Source: Branchiostoma floridae
Taxonomy: Eukaryota; Chordata; Leptocardii; Amphioxiformes; Branchiostomatidae
Length of the DNA: 64,000 bases
Assembly: GCF_000003815.2 (NCBI RefSeq)
Contig: NC_049983.1
Span: 15,143,060 to 15,207,059 of the forward strand
Direction of reading: 5' to 3'
The stretch's first letter is position 1, and the number at the start of each line of letters is the position of its first letter. The translations under genes and the position numbers were made by a program. The notes under the pieces are model-generated. The model saw only the letters and a list, made by a program, of their open reading frames with translations, was not told the DNA's origin and made no database searches. Of the stretch, positions 3,276-62,200 are shown piece by piece.

Positions 3276-3621
3276 TATGTGATATGAATCTCTGAATCTG
3301 TGTTTCACCGAGGTCGCTCATGTTTGTTTTATTTACTTTGGAACAGACAAGGACAATGTGGCACTGCACACTCAAGTTAGTAACTTATTTTAGCAGTACA
3401 GATAGAAGGTAAAGATATTAATTTCTCTCCCCCACTGAAGTCAGGCACCCATTTTTACACCTGGGTGAAGTGAGGATAGAACATTGGGGCCACGACAGGT
3501 ACTAGTATCTCGAGCCCAACATTTTACCAGTTATGCCAGATTTGCTCATGTTTAAAAGCCATACCAAATTGACTTGTTTCATATGACCTTTGCAGAAGTG
3601 ATTTGGACCATTACTACCATC

Positions 3622-15331: not shown

Positions 15332-18300
15332 CTGTAACACACGGTATGTGTATTGAGTTAAGGAACACACAAAGTTGTCATTTTCAATAGATAATATATT
15401 CATTTCATCAATCTGCCGACTTTTTTGTAGAATCCACCTTGTGGTGAATTACGCGACGTATATTCTGCAGTAACGTAACAAGCTACGTATCAACAAACTT
15501 CATCTTTGTTTTTTTAAATACCTACCCCCTTACTTAATATCCTAAATATGTACAGCTTCTCGAGTTATTCTGTCAAAAAACTTACAAACAAACAAACCCA
15601 CTTAGACAACCACAGACGGCACCAAAATCTAGCTAAGGTAGTTAAGCTGGACGGAAAGATAGTATCATCAAAGGTTACGTCTGTAGCTATACATTCTAAA
15701 TAAAGATACTAGTTTACACAACCGTTGCTTTATTCTCACCAAGGTTTCGATGGCCGTCTGTCACCTTCTTCAGGGCAAGTCTGACTGGTTCACATTTTGA
15801 AACGTTGGTTTGAATAAAGCAATGATTTTGTAAAAAGAGTCTCTATCCAGGGACGTACCAATCTGATGAAAATATTCATGGATTATACACTTCTACTTCT
15901 GGAAGTACATTATGACAGGCATATTCAATGTCTCTTAAGAAGAACCATTTGAACAAGAACTACGTGTTTCACCCACAAAAGTCCGGAATTATTAGATACA
16001 TGACTTCAGAAAAATACTTACCTTGCTGACAGTTCTGTCCAGNNNNNNNNNNNNNNNNNNNNNNNNNNNNNNNNNNNNNNNNNNNNNNNNNNNNNNNNNN
16101 NNNNNNNNNNNNNNNNNNNNNNNNNNNNNNNNNNNNNNNNNNNNNNNNNNNNNNNNNNNNNNNNNNNNNNNNNNNNNNNNNNNNNNNNNNNNNNNNNNNN
16201 NNNNNNNNNNNNNNNNNNNNNNNNNNNNNNNNNNNNNNNNNNNNNNNNNNNNNNNNNNNNNNNNNNNNNNNNNNNNNNNNNNNNNNNNNNNNNNNNNNNN
16301 NNNNNNNNNNNNNNNNNNNNNNNNNNNNNNNNNNNNNNNNNNNNNNNNNNNNNNNNNNNNNNNNNNNNNNNNNNNNNNNNNNNNNNNNNNNNNNNNNNNN
16401 NNNNNNNNNNNNNNNNNNNNNNNTTATGAGAATAACTTTTATGAGAAAAGACAAAAATATGTGTAAATTTCCTACCATCGTAAAAAGGTAGTTGAAGGAA
16501 AGGCGCTTTATAAGTATACCTTGCTGACAGTTCTGTCCAGTCCATCCAGGTGAGCAGAAACATTTGTAGCCACCATCCATGTTCACACAGGGTCCACGAC
16601 GGCATGGCCTTTTGGCACACTCATTGATGTCTGTGTGACGAAAAAGACATGTACAGTTGCACTTTGCATGTGGGCTTATGGTTAAAGTTTAACTATTAAC
16701 TAGAAAATAACTCACCTTGCTGACAGTTCTGTCCAGTCCATCCAAGTGAGCAGGTACATTTGTAGCCGCCATCTTGGTTCTCACAGCCTCCATGTTGGCA
16801 TGGTTTTATGTTACACTCATCGATGTCTGTGGGACAGCAAAGAGAATTATTGCAGAGTAGCTGACGAAAAGGGATTCGGAACACCTTCCTTCCATACCTA
16901 TGTACAACAGATTCGAAGTTCATATGGTTTGGAAATGCACGCATCTGTGTTTATGAGATGAGGGAAAAGTAAGGGAAGCTTGGTTTTCGAAGTGTATGAA
17001 ATAGCAATTTTCTAAACTGACACACCCTATAGCTAATATAGAACCGATACTGTTAACCTGATTTTTGTGACTGCGCTACCTAAACCAACTCACCTTGGTG
17101 ACAGTTCCGTCCAGTCCATCCAGGGTCGCAGGTACAATTGTAGCCGCCATCTTTGTTCACACAGCGTCCATGTTGGCATGGGTTTTTGGCACACTCGAGC
17201 TCGTCGATGTCTGTATGATAAAAAAAGACATGTACAGTTGTAGTTTGCATCTGGAATAATGGTTAAAATCTAACTATAAAGTAGAAAACAGCTCACCTTG
17301 TTGACAGTTCTGTCCTATCCATCCAGGGTCGCAGGTACATTTGTAGCCGCCATCTTTGTTCTCACAGCGTCCATGTTGGCATGGGGTTTGTGCACACGCA
17401 TCAGTGTCTGAGTAACAACAGAGAGAATTCCTTGTTATTTCAGAGTGGCTAACAAACAGGATACGGAACACCTTCGTTCCATACCTATCTACAACAGATT
17501 CGAAGTTCATATGGATATGCAATGCACTCATCTGTGTTTCTTAGATAAGGGGAAAATAAGGGACTGAGTTTGATTTGTCAAGTGTATAAACTAGCAATTT
17601 TCTAAACTGAAACCCTAATTAAGAAAGAACTGTTGACTTGTTATTTGTAACTACGCTACTTAGAACAGCTCACCTTGCTGACAGTTCTGTCCAGTCCACC
17701 CAGGGGAGCAGGTACATTTGTAGCCACCTCGTCTGTTCACGCAGTGTCCATGTTGGCATGGGTTTTTGGTACACTCATTGATGTCTGTGGGACAACAAAG
17801 AGAATGCAACGCTGGTGTCTGAATAGCTGAGTAAAATGGTTCGAAACACCATATTCTCCATTGCTGTTTACAACAGATTTCTTGTTAACATTGAAATGCA
17901 CTCATCTGTGTTCATTTAGATGTGACAGAAAAGTAAGGAAAGCTTGATTTTTTTAAAGTGAACTCATACATGTAATAGCAATTTTCTACACCGAAACACC
18001 CTTAGAACCTGAACACTGTTAGCTTGATATTTGTGACAACGCTACTTAGAACAACTCACCTCGATTACAGTTCCGCCCAGTCCATCCAGGTGAGCAGGTA
18101 CATTTGTAACGACCTCTTCTGTTCTTACAGAGTCCATGTTTGCATGGGTTTTTGGCACACTCATCGATGTCTGAGGAATGAAAAAGACATGTACAGTTGT
18201 ACTTTGACGTGAACTGATGGTTAAATATTATTACTATTAATTAGAAAACAACTCACCTTGCTGACAGTTCTGTCCAGTCCATCCAGGTGAGCAGGTACAT

Positions 18301-21300
18301 TTGTAGCCGCCATCTTCGTTCACACAGCGTCCGTGTTGGCATGGGTTTTCGGTACACTCATTGACGTCTGTGTGATAAAGAAATAAATGAAACCCATCGT
18401 TAACAAGAAACATAAGGTAAAAATGAAGAAAAAAAAACAATCAGGAGAAATGACAAAAATAAAGTGAATGGCAGCTACGAATAAAAGTAACCTTAACTTA
18501 AAAGTTCATTTGTTGGGTATGTCAATTCTTTTGTGTTGGAAATTACAGTTCAACTTTATCCAGAAAACTCACATTGCTGACAGTTCTGTCCAGCCCATCC
18601 AGGTGAGCAGGTACATTTGTAGCCGCCATCTTTGTTCACACAGCGTCCATGTTGACATGGGTTTTTGGTACATTCATCGATGTCTGTGTGACGAAAAAGA
18701 CATGTACAGTTGCACTTTGCATATGAAGTGATGGTTGAAGTTTATTACTATTAATTAGAAAACAACTCACCTTGCTGACAGTTCTGTCCAGTCCATCCAG
18801 GTGAGCAGGTACATTTGTAGCCGCCATCTTCGTTCACACAGCGTCCGTGTTGGCATGGGTTTTCGGTACACTCATTGACGTCTGTGTGATAAAGAAATAA
18901 ATGAAACCCATCATTAACAAGAAACATAAGGTAAAAATGAAGAAAAAAAAACAATTAGGAGAAATGACAAAAATAAAGTGAATGGCAGCTACGAATAAAA
19001 GTAACATTAACTTAAAAGTTCATTTGTTGGGTATGTCAATTCTTTTGTGTTGGAAATTACAGTTCAACTTTATCCAGAAAACTCACCTTGCTGACAGTTC
19101 TGTCCAGCCCATCCAGGTGAGCAGGTACATTTGTAGCCGCCATCTTTGTTCACACAGCGTCCATGTTGACATGGGTTTTTGGTACATTCATCGATGTCTG
19201 TGTGACGAAAAAGACATGTACAGTTGCACTTTGCATATGAAGTGATGGTTGAAGTTAATTACTATTAACTAGAAAACAACTCACCTTGCTGACAGTTCTG
19301 TCCAGTCCATCCAGGTAAGCATGTACATATGTAGCCACCATCTTTGTTCACACAGCGTCCATGTTGGCATGGTTTCCTGCTACATTCATCGATGTCTGTG
19401 TGATAAAAAAGAAAATTCAATATTAGAAGAATCATACATGTAATGTCGATTGTCTTGAAATTCTAAACAAAAACACCGATAAAAAGCATTTATGAATATA
19501 AATACTTCTTCTATCCAGCACTAAGTAACTTGATACTTGTGACTGAACGACTAGTACCTAAAACAACTCACCCTGCTGACAGTTCTGTCCAGTCCATCCA
19601 TGTGAGCATGTGCATTTGTAGCCGCCATCTTTGTTCACACAGCGTCCATGTTGGCATGGTTTCCTGATACATTCATCGATGTCTGTGCGTCAAAAGAAAG
19701 AGAATGCAATGCTGTTACCCGAACAGCAAGGTATAAAAGGTTCGAAACCCTTTTTTCTCCATCCCTGCTTAAAACAGACGTGGTCTTGAAATAGATTCAT
19801 CTGTGAATAGTAATTGACGGGAAAGTAAAGAAAGTAGTTTCATAAACTCATACAATCATGTAATACTCTGTTCTAAACGAAACAAATGAAAGATGAGTTT
19901 GCCATTTAGCACCAGTAACGTGATATTGTGACTGAAATACCGAAAACAACTCACCTTGCTGACAGTTCTGTCCAGTCCATCCAGGTGAGCAGGTACATTT
20001 GTAGCCGCCATCTTGGTTTCCACAGTGTCCATGTTGGCATGGTTTTATGGTACACTCATTGATGTCTGTGGAACAACAAAAAAGAGAATTATTGCAGAGT
20101 AGCTAACAAAAAGGGATTCGAAACACTTTCCTTCCATACCTATCTCCAACAGATTCGAGGTTCAAAGGGATTTACAATTCACCCATCTGTGTTTGTTAGA
20201 TGGGGTAAGGGAATCTTGTTTTGTCAATTGATGAAATAGCAAACAAGTTTCTAAACCGAAACACCCTGACATAGAACCAACAAAGTTAACTTGTTATTTG
20301 TGATTATTCTACTTAAAACAACTCACCCTGCTGACAGTTCTGTCCAGTCCATCCAGGTGAGCAGGTACATTTGTAGCCGCCATCTTCGTTCTCACAGCGT
20401 CCATGTTGGCATGGTTCTCTGCTACATTTATCGATGTCTGTGCGATAACAAAGAGAATTCAATATTAGAAGAGTCATATATGTAATGTTGATTGTCTTGA
20501 CGTTCTAAGCAAAAAGCATCCATAAAAGGCATTATTGTATATAACATACTTCTTCTATCCAGCACTAAGTAACTTGATACTTCTGACTGAACGACTAGTA
20601 CCTAAAACAACTCACCCTGCTGACAGTTCTGTCCAGTCCATCCATGTGAGCATGTGCATTTGTAGCCGCCATCTTTGTTCACACAGCGTCCATGTTGGCA
20701 TGGTTTCCTGATACATTCATCGATGTCTGTGCGTCAAAAGAAAGAGAATGCAATGCTGTTACCCGAACAGCAAGGTATAAAAGGTTCGAAACCCTTTTTT
20801 CTCCATCCCTGCTTAAAACAGACGTGGTCTTGAAATAGATTCATCTGTGAATAGTAATTGACGGGAAAGTAAAGAAAGTAGTTTCATAAACTCATACAAT
20901 CATGTAATACTCTGTTCTAAACGAAACAAATGAAAGATGAGTTTGCCATTTAGCACCAGTAACGTGATATTGTGACTGAAATACCGAAAACAACTCACCT
21001 TGCTGACAGTTCTGTCCAGTCCATCCAGGTGAGCAGGTACATTTGTAGCCGCCATCTTGGTTTCCACAGTGTCCATGTTGGCATGGTTTTATGGTACACT
21101 CATTGATGTCTGTGGAACAACAAAAAAGAGAATTATTGCAGAGTAGCTAACAAAAAGGGATTCGAAACACTTTCCTTCCATACCTATCTCCAACAGATTC
21201 GAGGTTCAAAGGGATTTACAATTCACCCATCTGTGTTTGTTAGATGGGGTAAGGGAATCTTGTTTTGTCAATTGATGAAATAGCAAACAAGTTTCTAAAC

Positions 21301-24300
21301 CGAAACACCCTGACATAGAACCAACAAAGTTAACTTGTTATTTGTGATTATTCTACTTAAAACAACTCACCTTGCTGACAGTTCTGTCCAGTCCATCCAG
21401 GTGAGCAGGTACATTTGTAGCCGCCATCTTCGTTCTCACAGCGTCCATGTTGGCATGGTTCTCTGCTACATTTATCGATGTCTGTGCGATAACAAAGAGA
21501 ATTCAATATTAGAAGAGTCATACATGTAATGTCGATTGTCTTGACGTTCTAAACAAAAAGCATTCATAAAAGGCATTATTGTATATAACATACTTCTTCT
21601 ACCCAGCTGTAAGTAACTTGATACTTCTGACTGAACGACTAGTACCTAAAACAACTCACCCTGCTGACAGTTCTGTCCAGTCCATCCATGTGAGCATGTA
21701 CATATGTAGCCGCCATCTTTGTTCACACAGCGTCCATGTTGGCATGGATTCCTGATACATTCATCGATGTCTGCGTGTCAAAAAAAGAAAAGAAAAAAGA
21801 ATTCAATACTGTTACTTGAATAGCAAGGTATAAAAGGTTCGAAACCCTTTTTTCTCTATTCCTGCTTAAAACAGACGTCATGTTGGCATGGTCTTGAAAT
21901 GGATTCATCTGTGAATAGTAGTTGACGGGAAAGTACAGGAAGCTTAAGCAGTCTCATAAACTCATACATGTAATACTTTTTTCTAAACGAAACAAGAGAA
22001 AGATGAGTTTGCCATTTAGCACCAGTAACGTTATACTTGTGACTGAAATACCTCAAACAACTCACCTTGCTGACAGTTCTGTCCAGTCCATCCAGGTGAG
22101 CAAGTACATTTGTAGCCGCCATCTTCGTTCACACAGCGTCCATGTTGGCATGGGTTTTTGGCACATTCATCGATGTCTGTGTGACGAAATGTACTGTTGC
22201 ACTTTGCATATGAGCTGATGGTTGAAGTTTATTACTATTAACTAGAAAACAACTCACCTTGCTGACAGTTCTGTCCAGTCCATCCAGGGTCGCAGGTACA
22301 CTTGTAGCCACCATCTTGGTTCTCACAGCTTCCATGCTGGCATGGTGTCCTGGTACACTTGTTGATGTCTGTGAGACATAAAAGGCAAGTAAAATAATAT
22401 TATATACTTTGCAGCTGGACTGACCAAGTCGACAAGAAGTTGGGAAACAGCCTACCTTGCTGACAGTTCTGTCCGGTCCATCCAGGTGAGCAGGTACATT
22501 TGTATCTGCCATTTTGGTTTACACAGCGTCCATGTTGGCATGGTGTTCTGGTACAACCATTGATGTCTGTGTGATGAAGAAAGAAACACCTTCCATACAC
22601 TGAACCCATCAACAAGAAAAATAAGGTAAAATTGATAGGAACAAGTACGAGAAATTATAAAATTCATTTATGCAAAGTGAATGGTAGATAGAAACTTACC
22701 TTAATGAAAGTTCTGAAGTAATGAAATGCTTTATAGAGCGTTTTCCTGACGTTTAGGCCATAATACGACAGTTCAGCATTATTTCGTTTACATCCAAGAA
22801 CCATTATGACAAGAGATTGAATTGGTGTGGCTTGGAAGATTCACTGCTTCGCTACTGAGTGCAAAAACCTTGTTGACATGATAAAGGCTTCAACTATCCT
22901 ACTGTATAATCTCCAAGCAAATCTATCGGTGTCAAGGCAGTATTCAAAGGGCCACCGCAGGCCTGTTGGATAACGGTAACGTTACTGGTTGGTCCTTTGG
23001 ATACTGCGTTGTCACCGATAGATCTGCTTGGAGACCTCTACTGCAGTCCTCCATAAACAAACTCATGCCTGACCTGTTGCTGCAGACATGGCGTTCGTTG
23101 GTTGGATTCCAGGCTGTGACCTGCTGGCATTGGTAAGCACCTCAGTTGACTCCCTCCCCGAAGGCAAAACGAGCGACGTCGAGTAGAAGACAGTCGACTG
23201 AGTCGTAGAGATGTTTTCCTCGTAGAACGTCGTTCCATGTTCGTAGAGCGCCGTTCTATGTTCGAAGAACGTCGTTCTACGTTCTGTAGTAGCCGACTTC
23301 CTAGGCATTGATGATGGGGAGAATGGAGTCGTGCTGACAAGTGCCGAGCCGTTTTCATTGTTGAACGTCGCCACTCTTTGAGAAGAAGACTTCCTCAGTG
23401 GCAACGATGGTGGGGAGTATGGAGTCGTGTTGGCATGGGCCGAGCTGTTTTCATTGTTGAACGTCGTCACTCTTTGAGAAGAAGACTTCTTCAGTGGCAT
23501 CGATGAGGAGGAGTATGGAGTCGTGTTGACATGGGCCGAGCTGTTTTTAATGGTAGGAAACCGATGACTCGGAAACGCTGGTATTTGTTATCTTTGCTAG
23601 GATCATCATGCCATCTTGTTTCCTTGACTCTGGTAGCCTCCTGCAATCACAATTTCATATTCTTGCTTTTCTAACAATGACTTAGAAGCAACTTCAGTCG
23701 AAATAGCCAAGACGAAAAACAGACGGCTTGGAGGCGAACTTGCATCATTGAGTATTTACTGGACCCTAAAACTTTGAGTATTTACTCCCTAAAACTGTAC
23801 CAGATACATACCGTCGGGACTGCCTCTATTTGCAAGCGACTTCCATAGATTGTGTAGAAAGTAGAATGTTGTGACCAAGATACTAGTATGTTCTCTGCCC
23901 TACGTAGCAACTTTGTGTATGGTTGATTGGACGGTACATACACATATAGGTTGGGTTTTTTTTCTGATAAAATCTTCTTGGCTTACCTTACTTTCAGGTT
24001 GGATGTATGCTGACACGGCGACAGCGATGACAGCGGACATTACCACCAGGACTCCACAGCCCAGGATGACCCAGCAAACCTGGCTAGACTTTGCCTTGTT
24101 CCACATTCCCATGGCACTTTCTGTGGTTCAATACAGAACGTACAACAGGGTGCACAAATTGCATTGGTTTATATGACAACAAAGAACGACAATCAGTATG
24201 TCTCTCATGATTTCGTCTGGCTAATTGTTCACTTTAAAATGTCCGAAAACAACGAAATTAATCGCCAAAATGGAGTCATGAGTTTTGTTCTTTCTCATCT

Positions 24301-38887: not shown

Positions 38888-41800
38888 TCAGAGCTCATCC
38901 TTTACTTCTTCTGTAGCAGCTTCTTCTCCCTAAAAGACAAAAGAAAAACATAAAAATGAGAACATGTAAACATTATTATTAAAAGACTTTTACATGAAAA
39001 CATGTAAATGTAGCTTGTATGTTGACAGAGTAATTCTTCATGTAGCTTGTATGTCCTCTCAATTTTTTCAGTGAGCACTGAACAAATTTCTGGCAAGTTA
39101 TTGATAACCCGTTACTAGTAGATTGATTATAACTAGTCTATCTAGATCTAATCTGTTACTAGACTTGTATACTAGCCACTATTCTTCTTGCAATGGGTCA
39201 AAACAACATGTGCTATTATGATGTCAGCATTATATCAAATCCCCTACCAAGTCTCCATTTTTCGAAGCAAAGTTATTGGAATCATGCTTGTCTTGGTGTG
39301 ATGCGAATATTGCATAGTGGCAGCCCTATATTTTACACAATTTAGATAGACCAGTTTAGTCAGAACCAATATCTTTCCACATCTCCCAATGGCAAAGTTG
39401 CACTCATGACAAAATTGCTCTAAAAAGTACACTTGCCCAATAAAGACTTTCACTTGCCTGGGGCAATCAGGCCAATGGATAAGTAGTTCTCCAACCCTGC
39501 TACATCATAAACATTTTGTTCCACATGTTATTCACTGACCTCAATAACATCCTCATCTCCCCCAGTCTCTTCCTCAGTAGCCTCTTCAGCATCTCCCTCC
39601 TCTGCATCCTCCTCCTCCTCAGCATCTACATCCTCTCCTTCCTCCTCATCACCCTCCTCTTCCTCTTCTTCATCTTCCTCCCATCCCTCAGCCTGTATAA
39701 TACACACATCACACCAATGTTAAAACCCTTAAACTGCCAAGCCCGGATATATCTAGCACACATATACATGCCCTGTGTGCCGCACCCGAATATATCCGGG
39801 ATAGCGTATTCCTCGGAAGTTGCAGCTTTGCACTTGTGTAGCGCACGAACCCCGGACGTTAGGGACTTCAGCTTTGTTTGAGGGTTCCTTTTTGGAGGTC
39901 AGCGGCCAACCCTGGCACTGATAGCATTTGATAGGGCTGAAACTCTTGCAGTTTAAGGGTTAAAACTTCAGAAGAAAAACTCATGGTTTCATTTAGGGTA
40001 GTCCCATATGGGGGCAGTGGATTGTTATCCACTGTGTTTGGGGCACGGTATTGGAAGGCCGAGCCCAACTCTCTCCTTCCATTGCCATTGTACCACTGAA
40101 ACCTGGGTCAATCAGGTACCCTCTACTCCAGAGGGTAGGGACATTGGGCTGTTCCCCACTGTGTCTAGGGCACAATATAGGAAGGTGGGGCCCTTCCCTC
40201 GGCCTGTACAATCACACCAATGTTAAAACTTCAGGAATATATAAGGTAGATGAAGGCAGTCCCATATAGGGGCAGTGGGCTGTTGTCCACTGTGTTGTTG
40301 GCACAGTGTTGGAAGGCATAACCCAACTCTCTCCTTCCACTGTCTTTTACCTATGAAACCATAAAGCATGTGTTTGCCTTGCAGTCGGAAGGTCGAGTCG
40401 TGCCAAAGACTTTAAAAATAGCTGCTTTCTCTGCTTAGCACTCAGCATTTGAGTATGGTAGTTGGACACACAGACCACTGCCAGTGGAAAACACTGTAGC
40501 TGCAGTGATTGCACAACTAACTGGTGCTGTGTGGTCCAGAGCTTCAGAAATGGAGATGGGGGCCGCCTGATACACCAGTTGGTGCCGGAAAGACTTTAAA
40601 TTTTTTTTTAAAGTTTAAAGACCTTACACAAAATAGCAGCTACTCAAGTAACTGGATATGATTTTGGAAACACTTCAGAAGGCATCGACTATGAATCATC
40701 TCTGACATTGAGGAAGCTGGTTCAAGAGCAGGTTTTATACCCTACCTGTGAAATGATATGCAAAGGAAATGAACGCAAATGCTGGATAGACAGTCTTTGT
40801 ATATATCTTTGCATTGAGGTTGACATTCATACTGAGTCTGATGCACAATTTGGTGTGGGAAGGTTTTATACCTGAACACAAATGTTGGATTCTATCAATC
40901 ATTAGACCTTCTTTGTACCTACCTTTGCATTGAGGTCGACGTTCATACTGAGTCTGAGCATGCGCTCGATTCTGTTGGCGAAGTCAGCAGAGTCCTGCAG
41001 CATGAAGCCAGAGCGCAGCACGGCCGTGTCATACAGGACCTGGGCTAGCTCTTTTGTTGTCTGGTCCTCCTGGTCAGTCTGAAGGGACAGGAGAATAGAT
41101 TTGTTGATGAAGGTTAGACTACCGGGTGATAAGATACGCCAAAAAACATTTGCCATGGCTGAGTGGGTAGAGCGCTCGCCTTGAATAGGTCGTGAGTTTA
41201 ATTTGATCCCTGGCCGAGTCATACCAAAGACTTTTAAAATGGTACATGCCGCTTTCTCTGCTTTGCACTCAGTACTAATGAGGAAGAGTATGGGAGTTAA
41301 ACATGTCACTTCCAGTGGACAAGCTTCCTGCTGAAGTGGCTTGCACAAATGAGTGGCCCAAGGGCTAAAGAAATGGCAATGGGCACCACCCGTCTGTTAC
41401 AGATGCACAGGCAACTTAAACTAACTAAACTAAAAGGCAATTACGCAAGCAACTGAATATGATTTTGGAAATTATATCCAGTTGCTTGAGTTACTGCTTT
41501 TTAGAGAAGAGTAGATCATTTTCATAAAGGGCCCTGTTTGGTTTGGCTTGATTCGGATCTCATCATTAGTGATTGAATGATGTAAATCACCATATGGCTG
41601 ATACAAGACGGAGGTTTGCCAGGCCTCCATTTGGGTGATTTGAAGTGAATCACCAACTCCGTGAAAGTCTCTCTAAGTAGCTTGATCAAGATTAAATAAA
41701 GTCTACATAGTTGCATTACGACTAAGACAAAAAGAAGCCACACACGTATACATGGACGTGTGGAGTGATCATACTTACAGCCACTCTATTTTTCAGCTCT

Positions 41801-43349
41801 TGTACCAGTGGATGGTGGGGGTTAAGCTCCAGGGTTTTCTTCTGTGAACCGTAGAAACTGTGGAGAAGACAAATAGAAAATATTAGTGAGGTTTAAAAGT
41901 AAAATGAGCTGAAACTCACCCCATATGACATAAATGGGGTTAGCTTGAGAAGCTTTTAAATTTGGAAATATAGTGTTGTGATAGAAACAATGTGATTGTG
42001 TACAAATGCTGAGAAAATGAGAAACACTATATCCTTAGTTCATCACATACAAAAGTATATGAGCATATTTGTGCAAGAAAGTTTTACGAAATAAGAAAGA
42101 TTAGAAAACGTACATTCTACCAGTGTTCTAGCCAGTCTGAAATTTTTTCCTGGATTTTGAATGGAAATCCTGTTGATGGTGCAATGATATGCTGTTTCCT
42201 TTATGTTGAAGGGCAAATTTTGCTGTTATACTTAGCTTGGTTCAATCAATATCTTTACATGCATCACAGAGGATGGAATGGGCAAAATTTTTGTCTGTCC
42301 CCAGCAGCAAAATTCCGTTAAAGGACGAATGCTGGCTATAATTGGCCTTGCAAGTTTCACACATTTCATAAGGCAATTGCTGTTTTAATTACAAAGAAAA
42401 AGGAAAAAAGAATGTGTCTTACTCTTGACTGCTGTCCTTTGACCTTGCATAAGCCTGGGCCTTCATGATTCTCTCCATGTTTCCTGACCTGCGGGGGAAA
42501 ATATCAAAGGTTACACGATCCGTTGCAGAAGAAATCAGTTCTTTAACCAACACCAAGAACTGAAAACCCAGAGAATACACTTTGAGTAAAGCAATGAAAA
42601 CTTAAAGCAATGAGTTTGAAATTTTGATGCATTTCACAATAGACTTTGGATTTAAACCAACTATGAAAGCTAGCAACATACTTATTAATTAAAGCTTTCC
42701 AGACTCTTTTGGCTTGTGTCCAGACTCTTCTATTCTATATGCTGTATTTCCAGTTATCATTCTATATGCTATATATACCACCTAGCAATTGTACAGGAAT
42801 ACTGTTCTTTTCTTATGAACAAGGTTGAACCTATGATGCATACTTGAGCAGTAGCATTTGCACAATTACCAGCCATAAGAGCTTGCTACCAGGGAACAGG
42901 GGGACTCATTTAGCAATGACTAAGGAATTGAGATGAGTTTTGAAGCATTTTGCTGTGAGACTGGGGGTTGAAACAACCATGCCACCAAGCAATTATTTGT
43001 TCAGGAAAACTTATGAACGATTTGTTCAAATTGTACAGTTCTGGAGTACAGTAGACGCCAGTTAATCACACACTTCTGTCAATTGCAGAAAATCCCCAAA
43101 TCCCATGGTGGTACAGCTTAAGAACTTTGTTGCAAAATTCGGATAATTGCACAAAATGTACTGGAGTGTGCAATTACTACTGTATTTGCATGCTTACCAG
43201 CCGTAAGAGCTTGCCACCAGGGCACAGGGGGACTCGGTGAGCCTCTCGGACAGCCTGGCCTTCTCAATCTGATCCTTCAGTGCACTGTCCTTCAGCCACG
43301 TCAGGAGAGTCTCATACTCCTTTTCCATCTCCTCACGCTGCTCCTTCAC
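38888..43349 (-). CDS. HSP90B1: HSP90B1 exons 16-21: dimerisation domain and KDEL tail
   Basis: C-terminal dimerisation domain. Exon 16 ends in [16 protein letters not shown], exon 17 has [20 protein letters not shown], exon 18 [17 protein letters not shown], and exon 19 [20 protein letters not shown] and [15 protein letters not shown]. Exon 20 (51 codons) is almost wholly acidic ([14 protein letters not shown] onward), and exon 21 (14 codons) ends VKDEL and TGA. The KDEL signal retains the protein in the ER. The acidic tail fits the calcium-binding C-terminus of the family. Confidence 0.95.
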
Positions 43350-46300
43350 CTGGATAGAAGATAAAATAAGTTGAAGTTAAAATATTGGTATGAGTCAGCA
43401 CGTGAAATACATACATGTAGATGACACACAATCGTGTCGGTGCAAATTCAATGTGTGCCCCTTGTGCGAAGCACAAAAGGGGATGATGCTTTGATAGGGG
43501 CATCAACAAATGAGGTCCTATCATCCTTTTTTGGATGTGTGCACCTTATTAGAGATTCACAGTGGAACTACTGCACAAGATACTCCATGAACAAGGTCTC
43601 ATATGAGGTATAATATAGATTTACATCAGCAAGATATACGTCAGCAAGAACCCAAATGTATAAACAGTAATCTTTGTCTTCACACGTCACATGGCACGGA
43701 AAGAAACAATCAGTGTCAAAATTAGTAGTAGTTGCATTTCGAAACTAAGTATTCTATTCTATGTATGCTGTATTTCTTGTCCTTGCAACAAGCCCTTTTG
43801 GCTGAAACTTGGCTGTTGAGAAATCAACCCTTCTACTACATTCCTCACCTTTTCGGACTCGTTGATCTTCAGCCCGTCCTTGGCGACGTTCTGGAACTTC
43901 TTGCCGTCGAACTCGGGCAGGGACTGGATGCAGTACTCATCAACAGGCTCCACCAGGTACAGGACCTCGTAACCCTTCTTCAGGAGACGCTCCACGAACG
44001 GAGAGCTCTCGGCCTGGGGGAGAGGAATACTTGTCAGTCTTTGTTTACAAACAAAAGTGTACATTCTTCACAATTCTGACGAGTTTGCCCACAGATATTG
44101 TGGTACAGGACCTCGTAACCCTTCTCCAGGATTTGCTCCACAAACGGAGAGCTCTCCGCCTGGGAGAGAGGAACGCTCGTCAATCTTTGCTTTCAAACAA
44201 AAGTGTTTACTACATATTCTACACAATACTATGGAGTTTGTCCACGGGTTCCACCAGGTACAGGACCTCGTAACTCTTCTTCAGGAGTCGCTCCACAAAT
44301 GGAGAGCTCTCCGCCTGGGGGAGAGGAACGCTCGTCAATCTTCGCTTTTAAAGAAAAAGTGTACATTCTACTACAGAAAGAAAATGGGTCTGAACAAAAT
44401 GGAAATTATGGCAGTAGCAGCGCAAGACCACGCCCTGTGGAAAAAGTACGTTCACAGAGTTGACCAATGCAACAGCGTTGCGGGAGGATCTAAGGTCGTT
44501 GAAAATTTGATCCATGTATACTTTTGTGTTGGAAGAAAGTTTAGCATTGTACTACGATCACTACCAACACAGATGAGCTTCCATGATATGATTGCTCACC
44601 TCCTTCCTACTGGTGCCTGCCATGAAGAAGATGGCCTCCTGTTTCTCTGTACTATAATTATTACCAACACACATGAGCTTCCATGAGAAATATATGATAG
44701 CTAAAGATGTTCACCTCCTTCCTGCTGGTTCCTGCCATGAAGAAGATGGCCTCCTGCTTCTCCTTCATCCTCTCCACATAGTCTGCCAGCGAGGTGACCT
44801 CCCCCTCAGAGTGGGAGGACTGGAACCGCAGCAGCTTGGCCAGACGGGTACGGTTGGAGTGGTCCTCGATCACTCCCAGCTTGATGCTGGAAAATAGGGG
44901 GGCATTTGTTGGTTCTAATCCCACACAGACCTAATCAACCATTGTGCATGGAAATGCACTTTTCTTCCAATTAAGGCACCATCTGAAATTTGCAGAGGTC
45001 CTGGGATTGAATTCTGACATGCTACTGATGTTGTGCCATTGGGAAACAACCACTGCCACTTAAGCCTCAAAGACTTTGGTACTACCCTTTCTTTACATGT
45101 GTATATGTAAGAACATATCAAAGGCTTTATACAAAATCTTGCAAAAGGTTAAGGACATCTCATTTTTTAGCGCAATCTTCTACGCTAAATTTGCAGGTTG
45201 CTTAAATCATTGTGGTGACTCAAAAGTTCCTTCAAATTGTCAAAAATTTGCTTCTTACAGTCAAACTTTTGTCCTGAAGGGTTAAAGTGATCCCGTGGAA
45301 CAATCAGATGTACCGTCACAACTACAGTGTCCAATCAGATGTTTTGTCACAACTACCATGGGAATCCATACATTGCACATGTAACTCACCTGGTGCTGTA
45401 TTCTTTCCAGAACTTTTCCAGGTACTCTTCGTTATCGATTTTCTTGATCATGTCCAGAGTCTGAGTGAGGATAGTGAGTGGAAAAGAAAGGAGTTGTTAA
45501 CAGTTCGACAAGGCACACCACTAACTTACTTGGTGCTGTACTCTTTCCAGAATCCTTCCAGATAGTCTTCGTCAGCGATCTTCTTGATCATGTCAAGGGT
45601 CTGTGGAGAAAAAGAGACGGGGGGAAAACAAAACCACATTACTGTGGAGGTTTAGAAAATAATTTGGAACAGCAAAAATGCTGCCAAGGACAGCTACCAT
45701 GCTGTTAAAGATGGCTCTCAATCTCATGCTGTACAGGATAGCTATGGAACAGCATGCCGAGCTGAGGACAGCTGGAAGTCAGCTGCTCTAAAGAGGAGAG
45801 AAAGTACCAGAACCATGCAGAATCTGGATAGTTAGTGCAATAACACACAACACAAGTGCAGTTCAATTCTGTACAGATATATAATACAGAAACACCACCA
45901 AACATGAATAGAGAGATTTTAATTTCTTGGAATTTTTTTACATTAATTTTTCTTTTCAAAAACATAGCAAAAACCAAAACAATTAGAGCAACAAGAGCAT
46001 TACCACAAGAGCTCTTACCTTCCTGACCAGCTTCTTCTTGATGACCTTGAGCAGCTTGTGCTGCTGTAGCGTCTCACGAGACACGTTGAGCGGGAGGTCG
46101 TCTGAGTCCACCATGCCCTTGACGAAGGACAGGTACTTGGGCATCATGTCTTGGAAGTCGTCAGTGATGAACACACGTCGCACAAACAGCTTGATGTAGT
46201 CAACCTTCTTACCGTACTCCTGTGGACAAAATATTGCAGCAATTCTAATTTTATTTTTTACATTGGCTGCTTAAAAAAAAGCTCATATTGGACATTTCAT

Positions 46301-47169
46301 CGAACATACATTTGTACATTGACATAAATATCTTCGTTTTTATCAAATCAATAAAAGTGGGGCTTTTTAGTCTTCTTCAACTTGAAAAAAAAAGTCAAAC
46401 CCAAACCCCCAAAAAACATTAGCATGCCTAAGAAAAACAAACAAACAGTAGGTTCTATTGCAGTTATAGCAACGCTCTACATGTANNNNNNNNNNNNNNN
46501 NNNNNNNNNNNNNNNNNNNNNNNNNNNNNNNNNNNNNNNNNNNNNNNNNNNNNNNNNNNNNNNNNNNNNNNNNNNNNNNNNNNNNNNNNNNNNNNNNNNN
46601 NNNNNNNNNNNNNNNNNNNNNNNNNNNNNNNNNNNNNNNNNNNNNNNNNNNNNNNNNNNNNNNNNNNNNNNNNNNNNNNNNNNNNNNNNNNNNNNNNNNN
46701 NNNNNNNNNNNNNNNNNNNNNNNNNNNNNNNNNNNNNNNNNNNNNNNNNNNNNNNNNNNNNNNNNNNNNNNNNNNNNNNNNNNNNNNNNNNNNNNNNNNN
46801 NNNNNNNNNNNNNNNNNNNNNNNNNNNNNNNNNNNNNNNNNNNNNNNNNNNNNNNNNNNNNNNNNNNNNNNNNNNNNNNNNNNNNNNNNNNNNNNNNNNN
46901 NNNNNNNNNNNNNNNNNNNNNNNNNNNNNNNNNNNNNNNNNNNNNNNNNNNNNNNNNNNNNNNNNNNNNNNNNNNNNNNNNNNNNNNNNNNNNNNNNNNN
47001 NNNNNNNNNNNNNNNNNNNNNNNNNNNNNNNNNNNNNNNNNNNNNNNNNNNNNNNNNNNNNNNNNNNNNNNNNNNNNNNNNNNNNNNNNNNNNNNNNNNN
47101 NNNNNNNNNNNNNNNNNNNNNNNNNNNNNNNNNNNNCGCGCCTAATGTGAAGGGGGTATAACCACCAAT

Positions 47170-47203
<34 letters not shown>

Positions 47204-50200
47204 TCTAACTCACATACACACACACAATTTCACACACACACACACACACACACGCATATGTACACACCCTCTCTCTCACACACACCCACACTCACACACA
47301 CTGTCTCTCTTTCTTAAAACAGCCCACAACACACACAAACACTTTCACACATGCGCGCACGCACACACACACACAAGCACACACACACAAACTTGTACAC
47401 ACACACACTCTCTCTTCAAACAGGCCACAGTTTATTACCTGGAACATGTCACGGGGACCAGTCTTGGGTACAAACAGGATGGACCTGAAGGTGACCTCTC
47501 CCTCTGCCACAAAGTGGGTGTGGGCCAGCGGGTCATCCGAGTCCTTGGAGAAGGACTTGTAGAACTCCTTGTATTCCTCCTCTGTAACCTCCTTAGGCCT
47601 GGAACCATGACGATAAGAAATTGCAGGAATGTGAATCAGATCCTGAAATTTCCATTTTTCCTACTGTCCAGAAGTGACCCCAAAAGAAATTCAAACTGTT
47701 CCAAAGTGAGGTTTAATTGTCCCCAACTTTTTTTGCACAGAAAGGCTATTGTTGTACTCTTGTATTATGGCATGACATCTACTATAATTATAATAATAAT
47801 GATACCAAGGACCCTCACTAAGATTCTTTGGGATGATTTTGTGAAAGTAAGTGTAAGACCTACTCATGCTGTAGTTCCACAAATAAATACTCAGACAAGA
47901 TGTGACCAAAAGAAGAAAAAATACTCAAATGCTGTCTTGGTCCTTTTTCAGACTCCCTTCATCTTTTACCCTTTTTGGGATTTGCAAGGTGCACACCAAG
48001 CATGGTCAAACTTTCCTATCAAAGCCCATGACAAAAGCCCAACACAATGCAGAAACTTGTGTGACAACATTAAAAATATCACCTATTATCAAACATTATG
48101 ATGGCAAAGGTATCACATGAAGACACTCACGGCCTGGTCCAGAGGGGCTTGTTCTCGTTCATCAGCTCCCAGTCCCAGGTGGTCTTCTCCACAGACTTGG
48201 TCTTGGGCTTCTTCTCTTCCTCCTCATCATCCTCTTCAACCTGATTGGAGATGAAAAAGAAACGATCAATATCCCGACAAGGCTTTCAAGGAGAACCCCT
48301 AGTCATCTTAAAAATTACTTTTGAAAAAACAACCAAGGCTCCACCCCTCTTGCAATTGTTGACTACAACCTCAGATTTTGAAGCACTGAAATTCCAAGTA
48401 GAACTTGCAGTGGTGGAGGCAGTCTTCTATATACAATGTAATTGCATAGTTCCTGCAATGTTTCACCACTCACCACATTATTCAGGGTTTCTTGCAACTT
48501 CCAAGTTCCATACAAAGTAGATTTTAGTTTAATTTGGCATAAGGAAGTAAACAGAGGCCTTTACTGTGTTTCAAGTCTGCAGTAGAAACAATTCTGTTTG
48601 CTGCAGTAATACAATGGAAGTCCATATTCACCAGCCACCTATAACCTTAGAAACACCTTCAGAATCACTAATGAGATTAGACACTGGTACCTTTCCATCC
48701 TCATCTTCATCCTCTATTTCATCCTCATCCTTGTAAGCATTCAAAGGAAGAACAAAGGAAACACATCTTCATTTTTAAGTTGCAAATGTAAAGGTAATAC
48801 AAATTATCATGCATTTTTATGTTCATAAGTCGCATGGTGTAAGAATCAAAGTCTGAGACATTTTGTGAAAAATATCTAAGTCAGCAAGCATACAGTCAAA
48901 CCTGGTCTACCGACCACCTGTGCATAACGACCCACTGTCCACTACGACCGCCGAAAAGAGGTCCCTTGAATTTTCCCATAGACGTAAGCATTAACATTTC
49001 TGTATATGACGACCACTGTCCATCGCGACCACGACCACCACTAAAGGCGACCGCACGTTACCTAAACACTGCCAAAACGACCGCGGCATGTGATTTTGTC
49101 CCGCTACTTTAATGTTCACGGCGAAAAATGAGCGTTATTGCCACAAATTATTAACCGCTATGGCCCCTCAAGCCCTCCCATAATTTCTCATTACTTCTGG
49201 ATCGGCACTTCACTCTACAAATTTTCGGTGGCTTCGTGATGTGAATCTCAGGCTAAAATGCCATTATATCCAGGGAGCAGACATGAAAGCGTTTAGTTTC
49301 ACCAGGCTTTTCGAAGATAAACTAAAAAAAACGCATTTTCTGTCATAATAAAACATCTGACTCGCTGTTCTTCCCGAGAATATATACGTATTTTTTGTAC
49401 AGCGCGGTTCAGAATCGCGGCGTCTGCAGGTCGGAAATACGCATCTCTGATTGGTTGAAACCACACAAACAACAACAACTGCATGTATAATGCCGGGGAA
49501 TCCCCGGCGATCTCGCGCTCTGATTGGTTGGAGCGGTGCATCATGGGAACTTTGCTGCCAGCTCGACGCCATCTTGTTTCAAAGACTTACGTTTTAAAAC
49601 GCAAAAGAACGCTATTTTCCACGATTACGTAGCACAATCCTAGTTAAAAATGCATAATCCAAAGAACTTTCCGTGGGAAACATGTGTTAATATGTGAATT
49701 TATGGTGTCTCTAGCGTAATTTTGGGTTTCGATGCACCCGTAAAGTGTGCTGAGAGTTAGCGTGGGTTTTCAAAATATACCCCGAAAATAATGTCGCATT
49801 TTTCACGTCACACAAAAACAAAACNNNNNNNNNNNNNNNNNNNNNNNNNNNNNNNNNNNNNNNNNNNNNNNNNNNNNNNNNNNNNNNNNNNNNNNNNNNN
49901 NNNNNNNNNNNNNNNNNNNNNNNNNNNNNNNNNNNNNNNNNNNNNNNNNNNNNNNNNNNNNNNNNNNNNNNNNNNNNNNNNNNNNNNNNNNNNNNNNNNN
50001 NNNNNNNNNNNNNNNNNNNNNNNNNNNNNNNNNNNNNNNNNNNNNNNNNNNNNNNNNNNNNNNNNNNNNNNNNNNNNNNNNNNNNNNNNNNNNNNNNNNN
50101 NNNNNNNNNNNNNNNNNNNNNNNNNNNNNNNNNNNNNNNNNNNNNAGCATTATATAACATCGTGTTATCTTGTAAATAATAAGAAAGACAAATGCGTTTC

Positions 50201-56200: not shown

Positions 56201-59200
56201 GGCGGCTGCCGCTCCTTCTGAATATGGATGGGGCCACGAGAACAGTCTTCCACCGTTCTCGAATCTTTAGCGTCACCTGGCGCAAAGAACGTGGGGTATT
56301 ACCTCAATTCTCCGAAAGGGCCAGTGCCTCAACCTCGGGCACCATGGCCATAGCGGCCGTCTGTGGCTGCGCTATCCTCCAGGTTTTTCGGCCTGGTGCG
56401 CCGATAATGCCAGCTCCGTGTAAGGCACAAGGTATGACGGCCGTCTGTATACGTAGCCTCGCCGATAACCTCCAGGTTCTACGGCATGCTTGGCCCGAAT
56501 TCTTCCCGTGCATGTTGCGCCGAAAGGGCCTTTTGGTCCTTCCCAGCGCCTGGCAAGCCTTGAGCGCTAAGCTCGACCGCCAGTACCGATAGTAGCCCGC
56601 CGATAGGGGCTTTTCACCCTTCCCGGTCTTACGGCCTGCTGCGACGATAGTAGCCGACCGATAGGGGCTTACCCTATCGGCGGCATGGTGCGCCGAAAGT
56701 GGTTCTTCTCGTAGCTCCACCACTTGATAATTTTCCAACAACGAAAAACTGAGTCACTACCGGATCATACCGGAGCAAACTCGATGCGTGCACCTTGCGC
56801 GAAGCACAAAAGGAAATGATGATTGGGAAGGGGCGTCATCACGTGAGGTCCCATCATGCTTTGCTTTTCTTTTCTTTGTATGTTGTGCACCATCTAGCGA
56901 TTCCCAGGAATACTGCATATTGTACTCTCCCTGAACAAGGTCGAGTCAGTGAGGTATAAATGGTGACAAGGTCATCTCTAGTTACTCCGAATGATTTGAG
57001 TCTCCTCAGGAAGAACAATCTCTGATTCCCTTTCTTGGCCATATTGTCGACCTGGGTATTCCATTTCAGATCGTCTTGTAGATGTAGACCCAGGAGTTTA
57101 GCTACTTTGACTTGTACCAAGGGATAGTTATCAATTTTGAGTGAGGGTAAAAAGTCTAATGGAGATCAAAATTAACAAACAAAAACAAAAGTTGGAGAGA
57201 GTATTGCACCACACACTAATGTACATGTGTATATACATGTGTATCTACAAGCAATAACCTAACAATGTCTTAAGCAATCTCACCTTAGCATCCTCATCCT
57301 CCTCTTCTTCCTTCTTCTCCTCATCTGCCTCTTCCTCAGCCTCTTCATCATCGATGGGCTCCTCCACTGTCTCTGTCTGCAGGGGGGAGGGTGTTAAAGT
57401 CAAACTTAAAGCTTGAGTTAAGGGTTGTCCCATAGCCTTTTTGAGGCTGTAACTCAGTTTCAGTGTAAGGCAGTGGGTGGTTATCCACCTGGGTTGAGTG
57501 AGAAAAGTTGTGTAATATGCCTTTTTAAAAGCAGTACATCAGTGAAATGTCTGGGGACTCCCTAGCCATCTGTGTTTTGCACAAAACACTAACCATTATG
57601 CCAATGCGACACGGCAATGATGTCTGCCCAATCTTTAGAGATTGTCAGATAATTACAGGGCCCAAGCCCTGTACTGTGATAGGGTAAATTTCCAGCGTAA
57701 ATCCCTGACGGTATCTGAATTCAGCAACCATCTGGGGATTAACAAATGTGGATGAAGCTCTCCTCACAGAAAAGTATTAACGAGAATTCTGTTACTGTCC
57801 CAAGAATTTGTTGTTGTTGACCTATTGTAAGATTAATGTATAGCAGAATAAAATAAGTATAAAGACTAGAGTGCACCTACCTTGCTAGTCCATAGGTAGA
57901 TGGGGAAGTTGATGAACTGGGAGTACTTCCGCACCAGCTCCTTGATGGTGTGGGGCTCCAGGAAGTCCTGAGCTTCTTCCTTCAAGTGCAAGCTGGAAAA
58001 AATACAACAGACTTTTAATGGCCAGTACCATCGGTACATCAAATGATCGGAATCTGTTGTTTTGTGCAATATTCTGCAAGAACTTTGAGTAAGAAAAATA
58101 GTAAAAGTTAAATCTCTACATTTTCCTCCAGTGATCATTCTGAAGCCTTACTTAATTATGTACCTTTACCTTAAAATAATACCAAGTGCATCATTATCAT
58201 GTCTTAAAAAATTGGAACTGTACACAAACTTTTTTTGGCTGTGGGTGCACCTAAACCTGCAAATATTAATGCACCTAAAATGTTATCTGTGTACGTCAAT
58301 GAAGGTTAGAAATCCGGGTAATAACATACGCCAAACAGCAATAACTCCAGCACCTGAATATGATTATGGAATAGGATTTTTCAAAATCATATCCAGTTGC
58401 TTGAGTAATTGCTATTTGACATATATTATCTGAGTGCCTACCATTGTCTTCCGAGACAGATGAATGTCAACAACAACAACCTACATACTATATTTATGTA
58501 TCTGTGCCTTGACCTTAAACTTGTAAACCTGAACTGCAGCATTTTAATCCTGGATACTGACCTGACAGTGGTTCCCTTGCCCAGGGTGTTAACTTGTTAA
58601 ACCTGAACTGTAACCTTATAAACGTTTAGTCCTGGTTACTGACCTGACAGTGGTTCCCTTGCCCAGGGTGTTAACTTGTTAAACCTGAACTGTAACCTTA
58701 TAAACGTTTAGTCCTGGTTACTGACCTGACAGTGGTTCCCCTGCCCAGGGTGTTAACTTGTTAAACCTGAACTGTAACCTTATAAACTTTTAATCCTGGT
58801 TACTGACCTGACAGTGGTTCCCCTGCCCAGGGTGTTTCCTCGTGGATCCTCCACCACACTGAAGGAGCCGGCATCAGACTCCCAGATGTGCTGGATGTCA
58901 TCGTTGTTCTTACTGGTCACCACAACACGGTCAGACACTGCGAACAAAGAGGATCAGTAACGTTTCTACAGATTCTTACTGGTCACCACAACACGGTCAG
59001 ACACTGCGAACAAAGAGGAACAACAAAGTTACTACAGATTCTTACTGGTCACCACAACACAGTCAGACACTGGAAATCATAGAAAACATTAGTTGTTTTT
59101 TTCTAACTACAGATTCAGCTACATAACATCTGACCGTACTGGTCACCACAACACAGTCAGACACTGGGAACCAGAGGAAACATTAGTCAACTACAGATTC

Positions 59201-62200
59201 AGCTAAACAACATTGTTATTCTTACTGGTCATCACGCAACATGCATGTCAACTACAGATTTGGAACTGCTTCAAGAACAAATAAGAACTAGCAAGCGAAC
59301 TCAAACTGTGGATAACAACACAGATAGACCAACTTGCTTAGGATTTGGCATCGCAGGTCATAGGTCTAACAAATGTTATCCGGGACAGAAACGTCTGGAA
59401 AGAGGTCTTTAGACTAGAGGGGGGACTTGGCCCAGGTAATTACTAACTGCCTAAAATGCTTATAGTAAACTGCTGAAAATAATAAGATAAACACAGCAGA
59501 CTTACCCAGGAAGGAGGAGTAGAAGCCCACACCAAACTGGCCAATCAGAGCGCTCTGTTCCTCGGCCGTGCCCTCTGCCAGTTTGTTGAGGAACTCACTG
59601 GTGCCAGACCGGGCGATAGTGCCCAGGTTGTTCACCAGCTCACTCTTGGTCATGCCGATTCCAGTGTCCGTAACGTGCAGGACGCCGTTCTCTTTGTCTG
59701 CCTGTAGGTGTGACAGTATCGATAATAAATAATTTGTCAATTTTCTTTAGAAAACATCATTGTAATTATGTTTAAGGTTAGGCATTCAGGATTGAAATGA
59801 AAGACAGTATATCTTTTATTGCATCTATACAACTGGACAATATTTTTTCTTCATCAGTTTGGCATAATGCGTCATTGGGTGTGAAAACATCAGAAGCAAG
59901 TATGTACACCAACACCTTTCTACATACTTAGATATTAAGAGAGTTCTTACCTTGATTTTGATGGTCAGTTCTTCATTTGTTGATAAAACCTCCTTGTCGG
60001 TAAGTGAGAGGAAGCGAATCTTGTCCAGAGCATCGGAGGAGTTGGAGATCAACTCACGAAGGAAGATCTGGAACACAACAAAAGTGAAAAAAAAATTAAT
60101 CATTGCCGTAAGGCAACAGTGTCTTCAAACCTGGAAAAAAGTGTAGATATTTGGTATGCCTGTAACAACTTGATAACTATGTTACCAGTAGTGCATGGGT
60201 TTTAAAAGAAGAGATGAAATGTTTAAGATATGGTTTGCTTGTTTGAACCTTTATCTATTCACGAGAATTTCTATTCCGGCCTGCAGGCTGCTTTTCATTG
60301 AGGTCATGAGAGAGGTAATGGTCAGATAAAATATAACAGAGATACAGATTACATCGAGTCCTAATAAATCCATCAACATATATCACTACATAAACATGGT
60401 ATGAAACATTAGTAGAGCAAAAGCTCAGTATTGGAAAAAGTCTTGTTACCTCCTTGTTCTTGTAGAGGGAGTTGATGATGAGTTTCATCATACGGCTGAC
60501 TTCTGCCTGAAACTCGTGTTTTTCTGCCCGATCTCTCATTTCTTTAATTTGCGCCACGTTTAGTCCGTCCAACTTGATGGCCTCTTCTTCCCTGAAAATT
60601 GCATTTCAAAGATATGACTTTAAAAAATCGACAAAATGATATCAAAGAAACTAGACATATCAATTTGCAAGTAAACAGTTACTGCACAGAGGAAAAATCT
60701 CATGATTTCCATCTACTGAAAAAAGATCAGTTTGGAAAAGGTTAAATGCATTTAGATTACAATAGATTGTCTTGAATTATGGCAGCACTTACTGTCTAAT
60801 CAACAAGTAACATCAATGCATCAAAACTCTTAAGGGCTAAATTGGCACTTAACAGAAGCTCTAAAAATGTTTCAACCAAAATTATCAGATCTTTGGGTCA
60901 AAATTTTAGCCCAAGGCACATGTCAAGCATGCTAAATATTCATAAAACACCTTGTGGGTCTTCTGCAATGCGTTATTTAAAATATATGGAGACTGTATTA
61001 TTTTAGCTTGCAAAACTTGTTTAAAGTTTTAATTTGCAATACCTGACAACATTCTGCAAATTGCAGACATTGATATCTTAATGGAATAATGGATTGCTAT
61101 AGCTGGATTTCTCTTTTTCCTTTTACCCTCTCTGGTATGTTTATTATAAAAGTACTGTTACTCTTTATAAGTAATTCTGTAAAATATGTCCTTTGTAACT
61201 CATTGAGAGGCAGGAACAAATGTCCCTGACCCATAGAAATATCAAGTACTCCCACAATACAATTGTTACAAGTACATGTTTAGGACCAAATATGGAAATG
61301 TAACAATCATCGATCGATCACTGAGCCGCATCATAGACAAAATGAGAACCGAGGTCAAATCCTGGTGATGTGGCATTTCAGCAAACATATAGATATACAC
61401 TGGTGATAGTCATGTATCCACAACATCATGTATTTATGCTTACACTATTGTACATGTTTCGATATCCTTGATGGCAAAAACATTACCTTTGCTACAGTTA
61501 TGTCAGTCTTCAACAAAGTTACCTAAAGTGGTAAGATCAAACTTAAAACTTCTTTCACCCATTCTAGACTTCTTCTGTTTCAAAGTCTGCAACTGAAACG
61601 CCCCCTGCAGTTCCAAAGAATGCTGCATGAGGGCTCCTTCCAGACCACAAGAACTGCCTACCAACCAAAAATCGTGCCCACAGCTTGTCCAGGAGATACA
61701 ATTAAAACCGGAAGTTCCACTGCACTACCACAGAAACCCACTAGGGGAGCAGAAAACCACTAGGGGAGCAAAGTCTCATCAAGACTTACATACCAAACAA
61801 ATATGAGGACAATATCCAGGCCACACAGACACTCTCACAAATGCTGTCAAAATCATTAACTTTTTGGCAGAGGGGTTAATCAGATTGAAGTGCCAAAGGC
61901 CATTACTTTAAAACCTGATCTCCAAGCAGATATTTGGGTGGACTTAAGTGAACAATATTGAACAAAGCTTCCATTTTTTCATGGAGGGAACAATATATGA
62001 CTACTGTAAATGCAGAAATGTTTGCGGTGGATTAATGTTCGCGGTTTTCGCGGTGACCACTTCACCGCGAATTTAAAACCACCCTGAACATTTTTCTATT
62101 ATGATATTAGATTGCAGTCTATGGTGTTACCGTGAACTTAAATCCACAGCAAAAAGTCCCTTTTCCAGCGGCCGCAAAATTAAATCCCCGCGAACTTAAA

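Follow-up and report, generated by a model that had tools for sequence, protein, structure and literature searches.

The window analyzed here is a 64,000-nt stretch of Branchiostoma floridae contig NC_049983.1, and on its minus strand, from ~62.3 to 38.9 kb (62331–38895), lies a gene for the HSP90 family member GRP94 (HSP90B1, endoplasmin). A tblastn search with an approximate human GRP94 query finds stretches of similarity along this minus-strand gene. The peptide of exons 12, 13A, and 14 has endoplasmin chains as its best matches in the PDB (E 2.8e-40), the Pfam HSP90 domain is matched by both GRP94 exons tested (2/2), and an open frame at 38902 ends with a C-terminal KDEL and stop. Judged by its sequence, the gene is GRP94/HSP90B1: its HSP90 family sequence is closest to endoplasmin, and it carries the KDEL C terminus. 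The exon list comprises the exons between the first and the last one, with the acidic-linker stretch (57.9–48.2 kb) standing outside the exon model; the number 13 is hence a label taken over from the original prediction, and exon numbering is relative. Two assembly gaps (46486–47136 and 49825–50145) fall within introns of the gene. Elsewhere in the window, a 318-codon open frame on the plus strand (3556–4509) contains seven to nine C2H2 zinc-finger stretches according to Pfam, with tandem repeats spaced 84 bp; an open frame on the minus strand (7968–8567) matches the sialyltransferase family GT29 (Pfam); and a large tandem array of many ~130-bp repeats and higher-order repeats (16518–22586) stands beside an assembly gap (16043–16423).

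Within the GRP94 gene, exon 13 is present twice. Reading along the minus strand, the upstream exon ("exon 12," 46019–46219), which belongs to the HSP90 domain and ends in phase 0, is followed by intron 12 (45601–46018, 418 nt) with its pyrimidine-rich acceptor, exon 13A (45530–45600), a GT-AG intron of 69 nt (45461–45529), exon 13B (45390–45460), intron 13 (44887–45389, 503 nt), and the downstream exon ("exon 14," 44715–44886). Both copies measure 71 nt, which gives a repeat period of 140 nt, and they differ at 12 of the 71 positions without a single indel (59/71 identical, 83%; blastn E 4e-18). With a z of 17 against 500 plain shuffles, this similarity is far above chance. The two copies, their spacing, and their divergence had been predicted before and are found as described, the strand being the minus strand. 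Directly downstream of 13B, the intron contains two 25-nt direct repeats (88%) that lie 31 nt apart (45301–45356).

Each copy encodes 23 codons plus 2 nt, is entered in phase 0 and left in phase 2, is open throughout, and is flanked by AG and GT; both can be aligned to GRP94 chains of the PDB. The split codon reads AA|C (Asn) in 13A and AG|C (Ser) in 13B, and each copy joins exons 12 and 14 in frame. A message that contains both copies, on the contrary, is shifted in frame and runs into a stop at the fourth codon past the A–B split codon, whereas a message that skips both copies and joins exon 12 to exon 14 stops 26 codons past exon 12. Phases, frames, the split codon, and the frameshift upon joint inclusion thereby all bear out what had been proposed. 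In length, phase, similarity, absence of an in-frame stop, and GT-AG borders, the pair shows the sequence properties of mutually exclusive exons, and the premature stop upon joint inclusion is the property of their frame-shift class.

The splice sites are less uniform. Here, sites were scored with approximate consensus frequencies, which allows for a ranking only. The donor of 13B (CAG|GTGAGT) ranks first of the 17 donors scored in the gene and the acceptor of 13A first of the 15 acceptors, whereas the donor of 13A ranks 7th of 17 and the acceptor of 13B only 12th of 15. The suggestion that both copies bear strong splice sites is thus right for one site of each copy and too generous for the other. 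With so weak an acceptor, 13B may see little use.

None of the 15 modeled introns is shorter than the one between the copies (the others range from 249 to 9640 nt, and the longest may hide linker exons). The intron between the copies contains three matches to the branch-point consensus yUnAy. Two of these are 14 and 5 nt away from the 3′ end, a distance too short for a functional branch point. Hence, the third match—TTAAC, whose A is at +33 from the donor and 36 nt from the 3′ end (window position 45497)—would be the sole usable one. In papers on mutually exclusive exons, the minimum distance between donor and branch point is put at ~50 nt (PMC7969005 and PMC5740500). The predicted branch point at +33 of the 69-nt intron, a 5-base match, would be below this <50-nt threshold of the steric class. 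In the human survey, 57 of 629 mutually exclusive clusters (9%) show potential steric interference and 377 of 629 (60%) hold exons not divisible by three (PMC5740500). By sequence, the exon 13 pair fits the frame-shift class and, with the predicted branch point, would fit the steric class as well. The closest parallel is OGDH, whose exons 4a and 4b are likewise tandem duplicates around a restricted intron, with human branch points 25–41 nt from the donor (PMC7969005, PMC5740500) as compared with the 33 nt predicted here. However, this vertebrate case concerns another gene, and its branch points were mapped experimentally, whereas the geometry in GRP94 is a sequence prediction. The same distinction applies to the human clusters in general: the exon 13 pair has the sequence properties by which such clusters are predicted, but those clusters were validated by junction reads (PMC5740500), and the GRP94 pair is a candidate.

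Two other routes to mutual exclusion were considered. Competing RNA secondary structure finds no support in a 401-nt fold around the exon 13 pair, computed for the single sequence, which is not more stable than its shuffles (z +1.37; 94 of 100 shuffles equal or exceed its stability). Incompatibility of U2- and U12-type introns is set aside as well: all 15 of the 15 modeled introns are GT-AG, as judged by their dinucleotides rather than by a U12 model.

The pair does not stand alone within its gene, a context that the original prediction of a mutually exclusive pair was missing. Amphioxus genes are known to bear so-called mirages—minisatellite-like tandem repeats that span exon–intron boundaries—in the genes of Adh3, globin, troponin C, and PGBD5 (PMC3087553, PMC3902484). 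Splicing is said to be undisturbed by these mirages, which have been put forward as material from which new introns and exons could be built (PMC3087553). Besides exon 13, tandem copies of exon parts are found at six exon edges of the GRP94 gene, all on the minus strand: a partial copy of the exon 14 3′ end with its donor (44593–44647, 93% identical); two partial copies of the exon 15 5′ end with its acceptor (44086–44369, the true exon starting at 44013); a partial copy of the exon 16 3′ end (42856–42914); a partial copy of the 3′ end of a later exon (40787–40841, true end 40923); units of ~73 bp that repeat the 3′ end of the exon ending at 58808 (58518–58836); and units of ~66 bp that repeat the 5′ end of the exon starting at 58937 (58907–59235). 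The last two are the most regular arrays. Local repeats in the gene merge into ten clusters, each counted over the full span of its copies. Seven of these ten, exon 13 included, cover a modeled exon edge, whereas random placement puts a mean of 3.27 on exon edges (p = 0.0165, 20,000 placements). Detection bias may account for some of this excess, given that each such repeat has a conserved exon as one partner, and the modeled exons used for the count are those between the first and the last. Another set of three tandem ~130-bp units in the gene (39997–40360) does not overlap any modeled exon.

At exon 15, the copies result in three tandem acceptors (43940–44369). Inspection by eye shows that translation through the first copy hits a stop, whereas the second lacks what follows in the true exon; choosing a wrong acceptor should thus truncate GRP94. 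A combinatorial array, in which exons 14 and 15 would be duplicated in addition to exon 13, was rejected: these copies are partial, and by eye, reading through them leads to stops or out of frame.

Exon 13 shares several features with these mirages and departs from them in others. Copies elsewhere in the gene are spaced by 66–155 nt (in one case 328 nt), and the 140-nt period of exon 13 falls within this range. It is also similar to the unit of the published BflGb6 mirage, which measures 150–160 bp with 81–100% identity (PMC3087553). As in Adh3, the globins BflGb6 and BflGb9, TnC, and PGBD5 (PMC3087553, PMC3902484), the tandem copies span splice sites, and both exon–intron boundaries are included in the repeat. 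Unlike mirages, however, the copy of exon 13 is whole and bears both splice sites—it is the sole whole-exon copy detected in the GRP94 gene—and similarity has been lost in its intronic part but retained in the exon. In 11 mirage rows of the gene (several of them overlapping; the two that represent exon 13 are left out), exon parts are 89–100% and intron parts 75–96% identical. For the exon 13 pair, intron and exon parts are not repeated alike: the alignment extends over just 11 intronic positions next to the exon (10 of them identical), and otherwise the flanking introns show no similarity above that of shuffled sequence (z 0.04 upstream and −0.64 downstream against 500 plain shuffles). Judged by these alignments, the pair would at most be an aged or matured mirage. 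Since its identity of 83% is below that of the mirage exon parts, the pair appears not to be younger than these.

We consider it probable that the exon 13 pair originated from a mirage-type duplication and has turned into a pair of mutually exclusive exons. A short tandem duplication with a period of 140 nt would have happened to take in the whole of exon 13, which was possible because this exon is short. Selection would then have retained both copies, with splicing using one at a time. The predicted 13B branch point is so near to the 13A donor that U1 and U2 would be unable to assemble together on the 69-nt intron, and this clash is proposed to keep 13A and 13B from being joined. Any messages that contain both copies or neither would be expected to be destroyed by nonsense-mediated decay owing to their early stops. 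The outcome would be two GRP94 proteins that are five residues apart in one segment of the middle domain. Sequence properties, branch-point geometry, and signs of purifying selection thus side with the mutually exclusive arrangement first put forward, to which the mirages of the gene add a likely origin. The same mirages also bring in the main rival, since published mirages are reported to be splicing-neutral.

According to this rival, a single copy is spliced—more likely 13A—while the other, a mirage copy still open by luck, goes unused. It draws on the exon-edge copies at the six other places in the gene, on the published mirages that are without effect on the mRNA (PMC3087553, PMC3902484), and on 13B itself, with its weaker acceptor and its less usual residues Asn10 and Ser24. 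Yet the other copies in the gene are partial, whereas the exon 13 pair, though not younger, is without stop or indel and has its splice dinucleotides intact. The pattern of differences points the same way. Of the ten codons that differ between the copies, five encode the same residue and five a different one; of the 12 nucleotide differences, five fall in silent codons and seven in changed ones, three of these in codon 16. Estimates of dN/dS are 0.107/0.845 (NG86), 0.129/0.408 (YN00), and 0.119/0.814 (maximum likelihood), all three below one, to be read with the reservation that only 24 codons enter and that dS estimates vary two-fold.

If all 12 changes are placed randomly in one copy, the probability of a copy that is open with at most five amino acid changes is 0.008–0.009. 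If one copy is constrained and the other free until 12 differences have accumulated, an open copy with at most five changes is found in 4–6% of simulated runs, and in 2.4–3.2% if the splice dinucleotides are also required to be intact. Adding 0.19 indels per substitution—the ratio of 28 gap events to 145 mismatches in the mirage rows—lowers this to 0.2–0.45% (about 0.2–0.5%), and the simulated probability of the unused-copy state hence varies with the indel rate, from 0.2 to 3.2%. When constraint acts on both copies, at most five amino acid changes occur in 87%, 54%, and 29% of runs at omega values of 0.1, 0.2, and 0.3. Both copies thus show signs of purifying selection, and the evidence that both are used is good but not conclusive. 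At the same time, 13B has Asn10 in place of the Asp shared by 13A and all five compared sequences, and Ser24 in place of the Asn of GRP94 and Hsp90-alpha; these departures could reflect relaxed constraint on 13B. Taken together, an unused second copy is unlikely, though it deserves to be kept in mind.

It is improbable that the joining of 13A and 13B, or the skipping of both, serves as a poison switch to reduce GRP94 via nonsense-mediated decay. An intron of 69 nt is of a possible length, and the joined message does stop at the fourth codon past the split codon; however, with its A at +33, the predicted branch point would be closer to the donor than the reported steric limit allows, and a pure poison exon needs no conserved amino acid sequence, whereas both copies look constrained. 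Least probable of all is an assembly artefact that placed two alleles or overlapping contig ends in tandem: amphioxus genomes are highly heterozygous and the gap at 46486–47136 is nearby, but a difference of 17% in a coding exon next to nonaligning introns is the reverse of an allelic pattern, and no gap separates 13A from 13B. With exons alike and introns unlike, a plain assembly duplicate is unlikely, as first suggested, and tandem copies in the lancelet PGBD5 gene were, according to their authors, backed by resequencing (PMC3902484).

Tandem exon duplication with exclusive use has a precedent in a chordate lineage in exons IIIb and IIIc of FGFR, which are regulated by Esrp and predate the split of the three chordate subphyla (PMC5703972). 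For GRP94 itself, the titles and abstract openings of the matches listed—a set with most of the subscription literature outside of it—contain no mutually exclusive exon, and an annotated isoform is possible; the term HSP90 is absent from the main text of the human survey (PMC5740500). Receptors chaperoned by GRP94 include TLRs, integrins, LRP6, and IGF1R. If the mutually exclusive reading of exon 13 is true, a switch of a middle-domain exon would provide two natural GRP94 forms for direct comparison. To our knowledge, GRP94 has been treated as a protein of a single form. The pair would then also provide a concrete example of an amphioxus mirage that gave rise to a functional alternative exon while partial copies persist in the same gene. 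Going further, one might speculate that a splicing-neutral mirage has matured into a functional pair whose two GRP94 forms are chosen by tissue or by ER stress and differ in their preference for clients or regulators; this we regard as possible but rather doubtful, and any effect of the A/B difference on clients or cofactors is a guess.

The five residue changes from 13A to 13B are Ala9Asp, Asp10Asn, Asp12Glu, Gly16Lys, and Asn24Ser, and the net charge of the encoded segment goes from −3 to −2. This segment of the middle domain aligns without gaps to dog and human GRP94. In a gapless alignment by hand, 13A is nearer to vertebrate GRP94, with which it shares A9, D10, and N24, whereas 13B resembles other family members: Lys16 is found in Hsp90-alpha and TRAP1, Glu12 in Hsp90-alpha, HtpG, and TRAP1, and Asp9 in HtpG. 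From these residues, the ancestral copy might be either 13A, with its residues as in vertebrate GRP94, or 13B, with its residues as in Hsp90-alpha, TRAP1, and HtpG.

Human N481 (YNDTFW) falls within the exon 13 segment, its position being derived from an alignment with the approximate human sequence. It is described as one of five facultative glycosylation sites, and GRP94 that is hyperglycosylated at such sites as unable to fold (PMC7617332). A glycosylation switch between 13A and 13B was nevertheless rejected: the N481 sequon is lost in both copies (YLEGFW or YLEKFW), so the choice between A and B does not toggle this site. Across the whole gene, again in comparison with the approximate human sequence and with human sites numbered as in PMC7617332, the constitutive site N217 (NDT) has become NDD and N62 is lost along with N481, whereas N107, N445, N502, and the SRT pseudosubstrate motif are kept.
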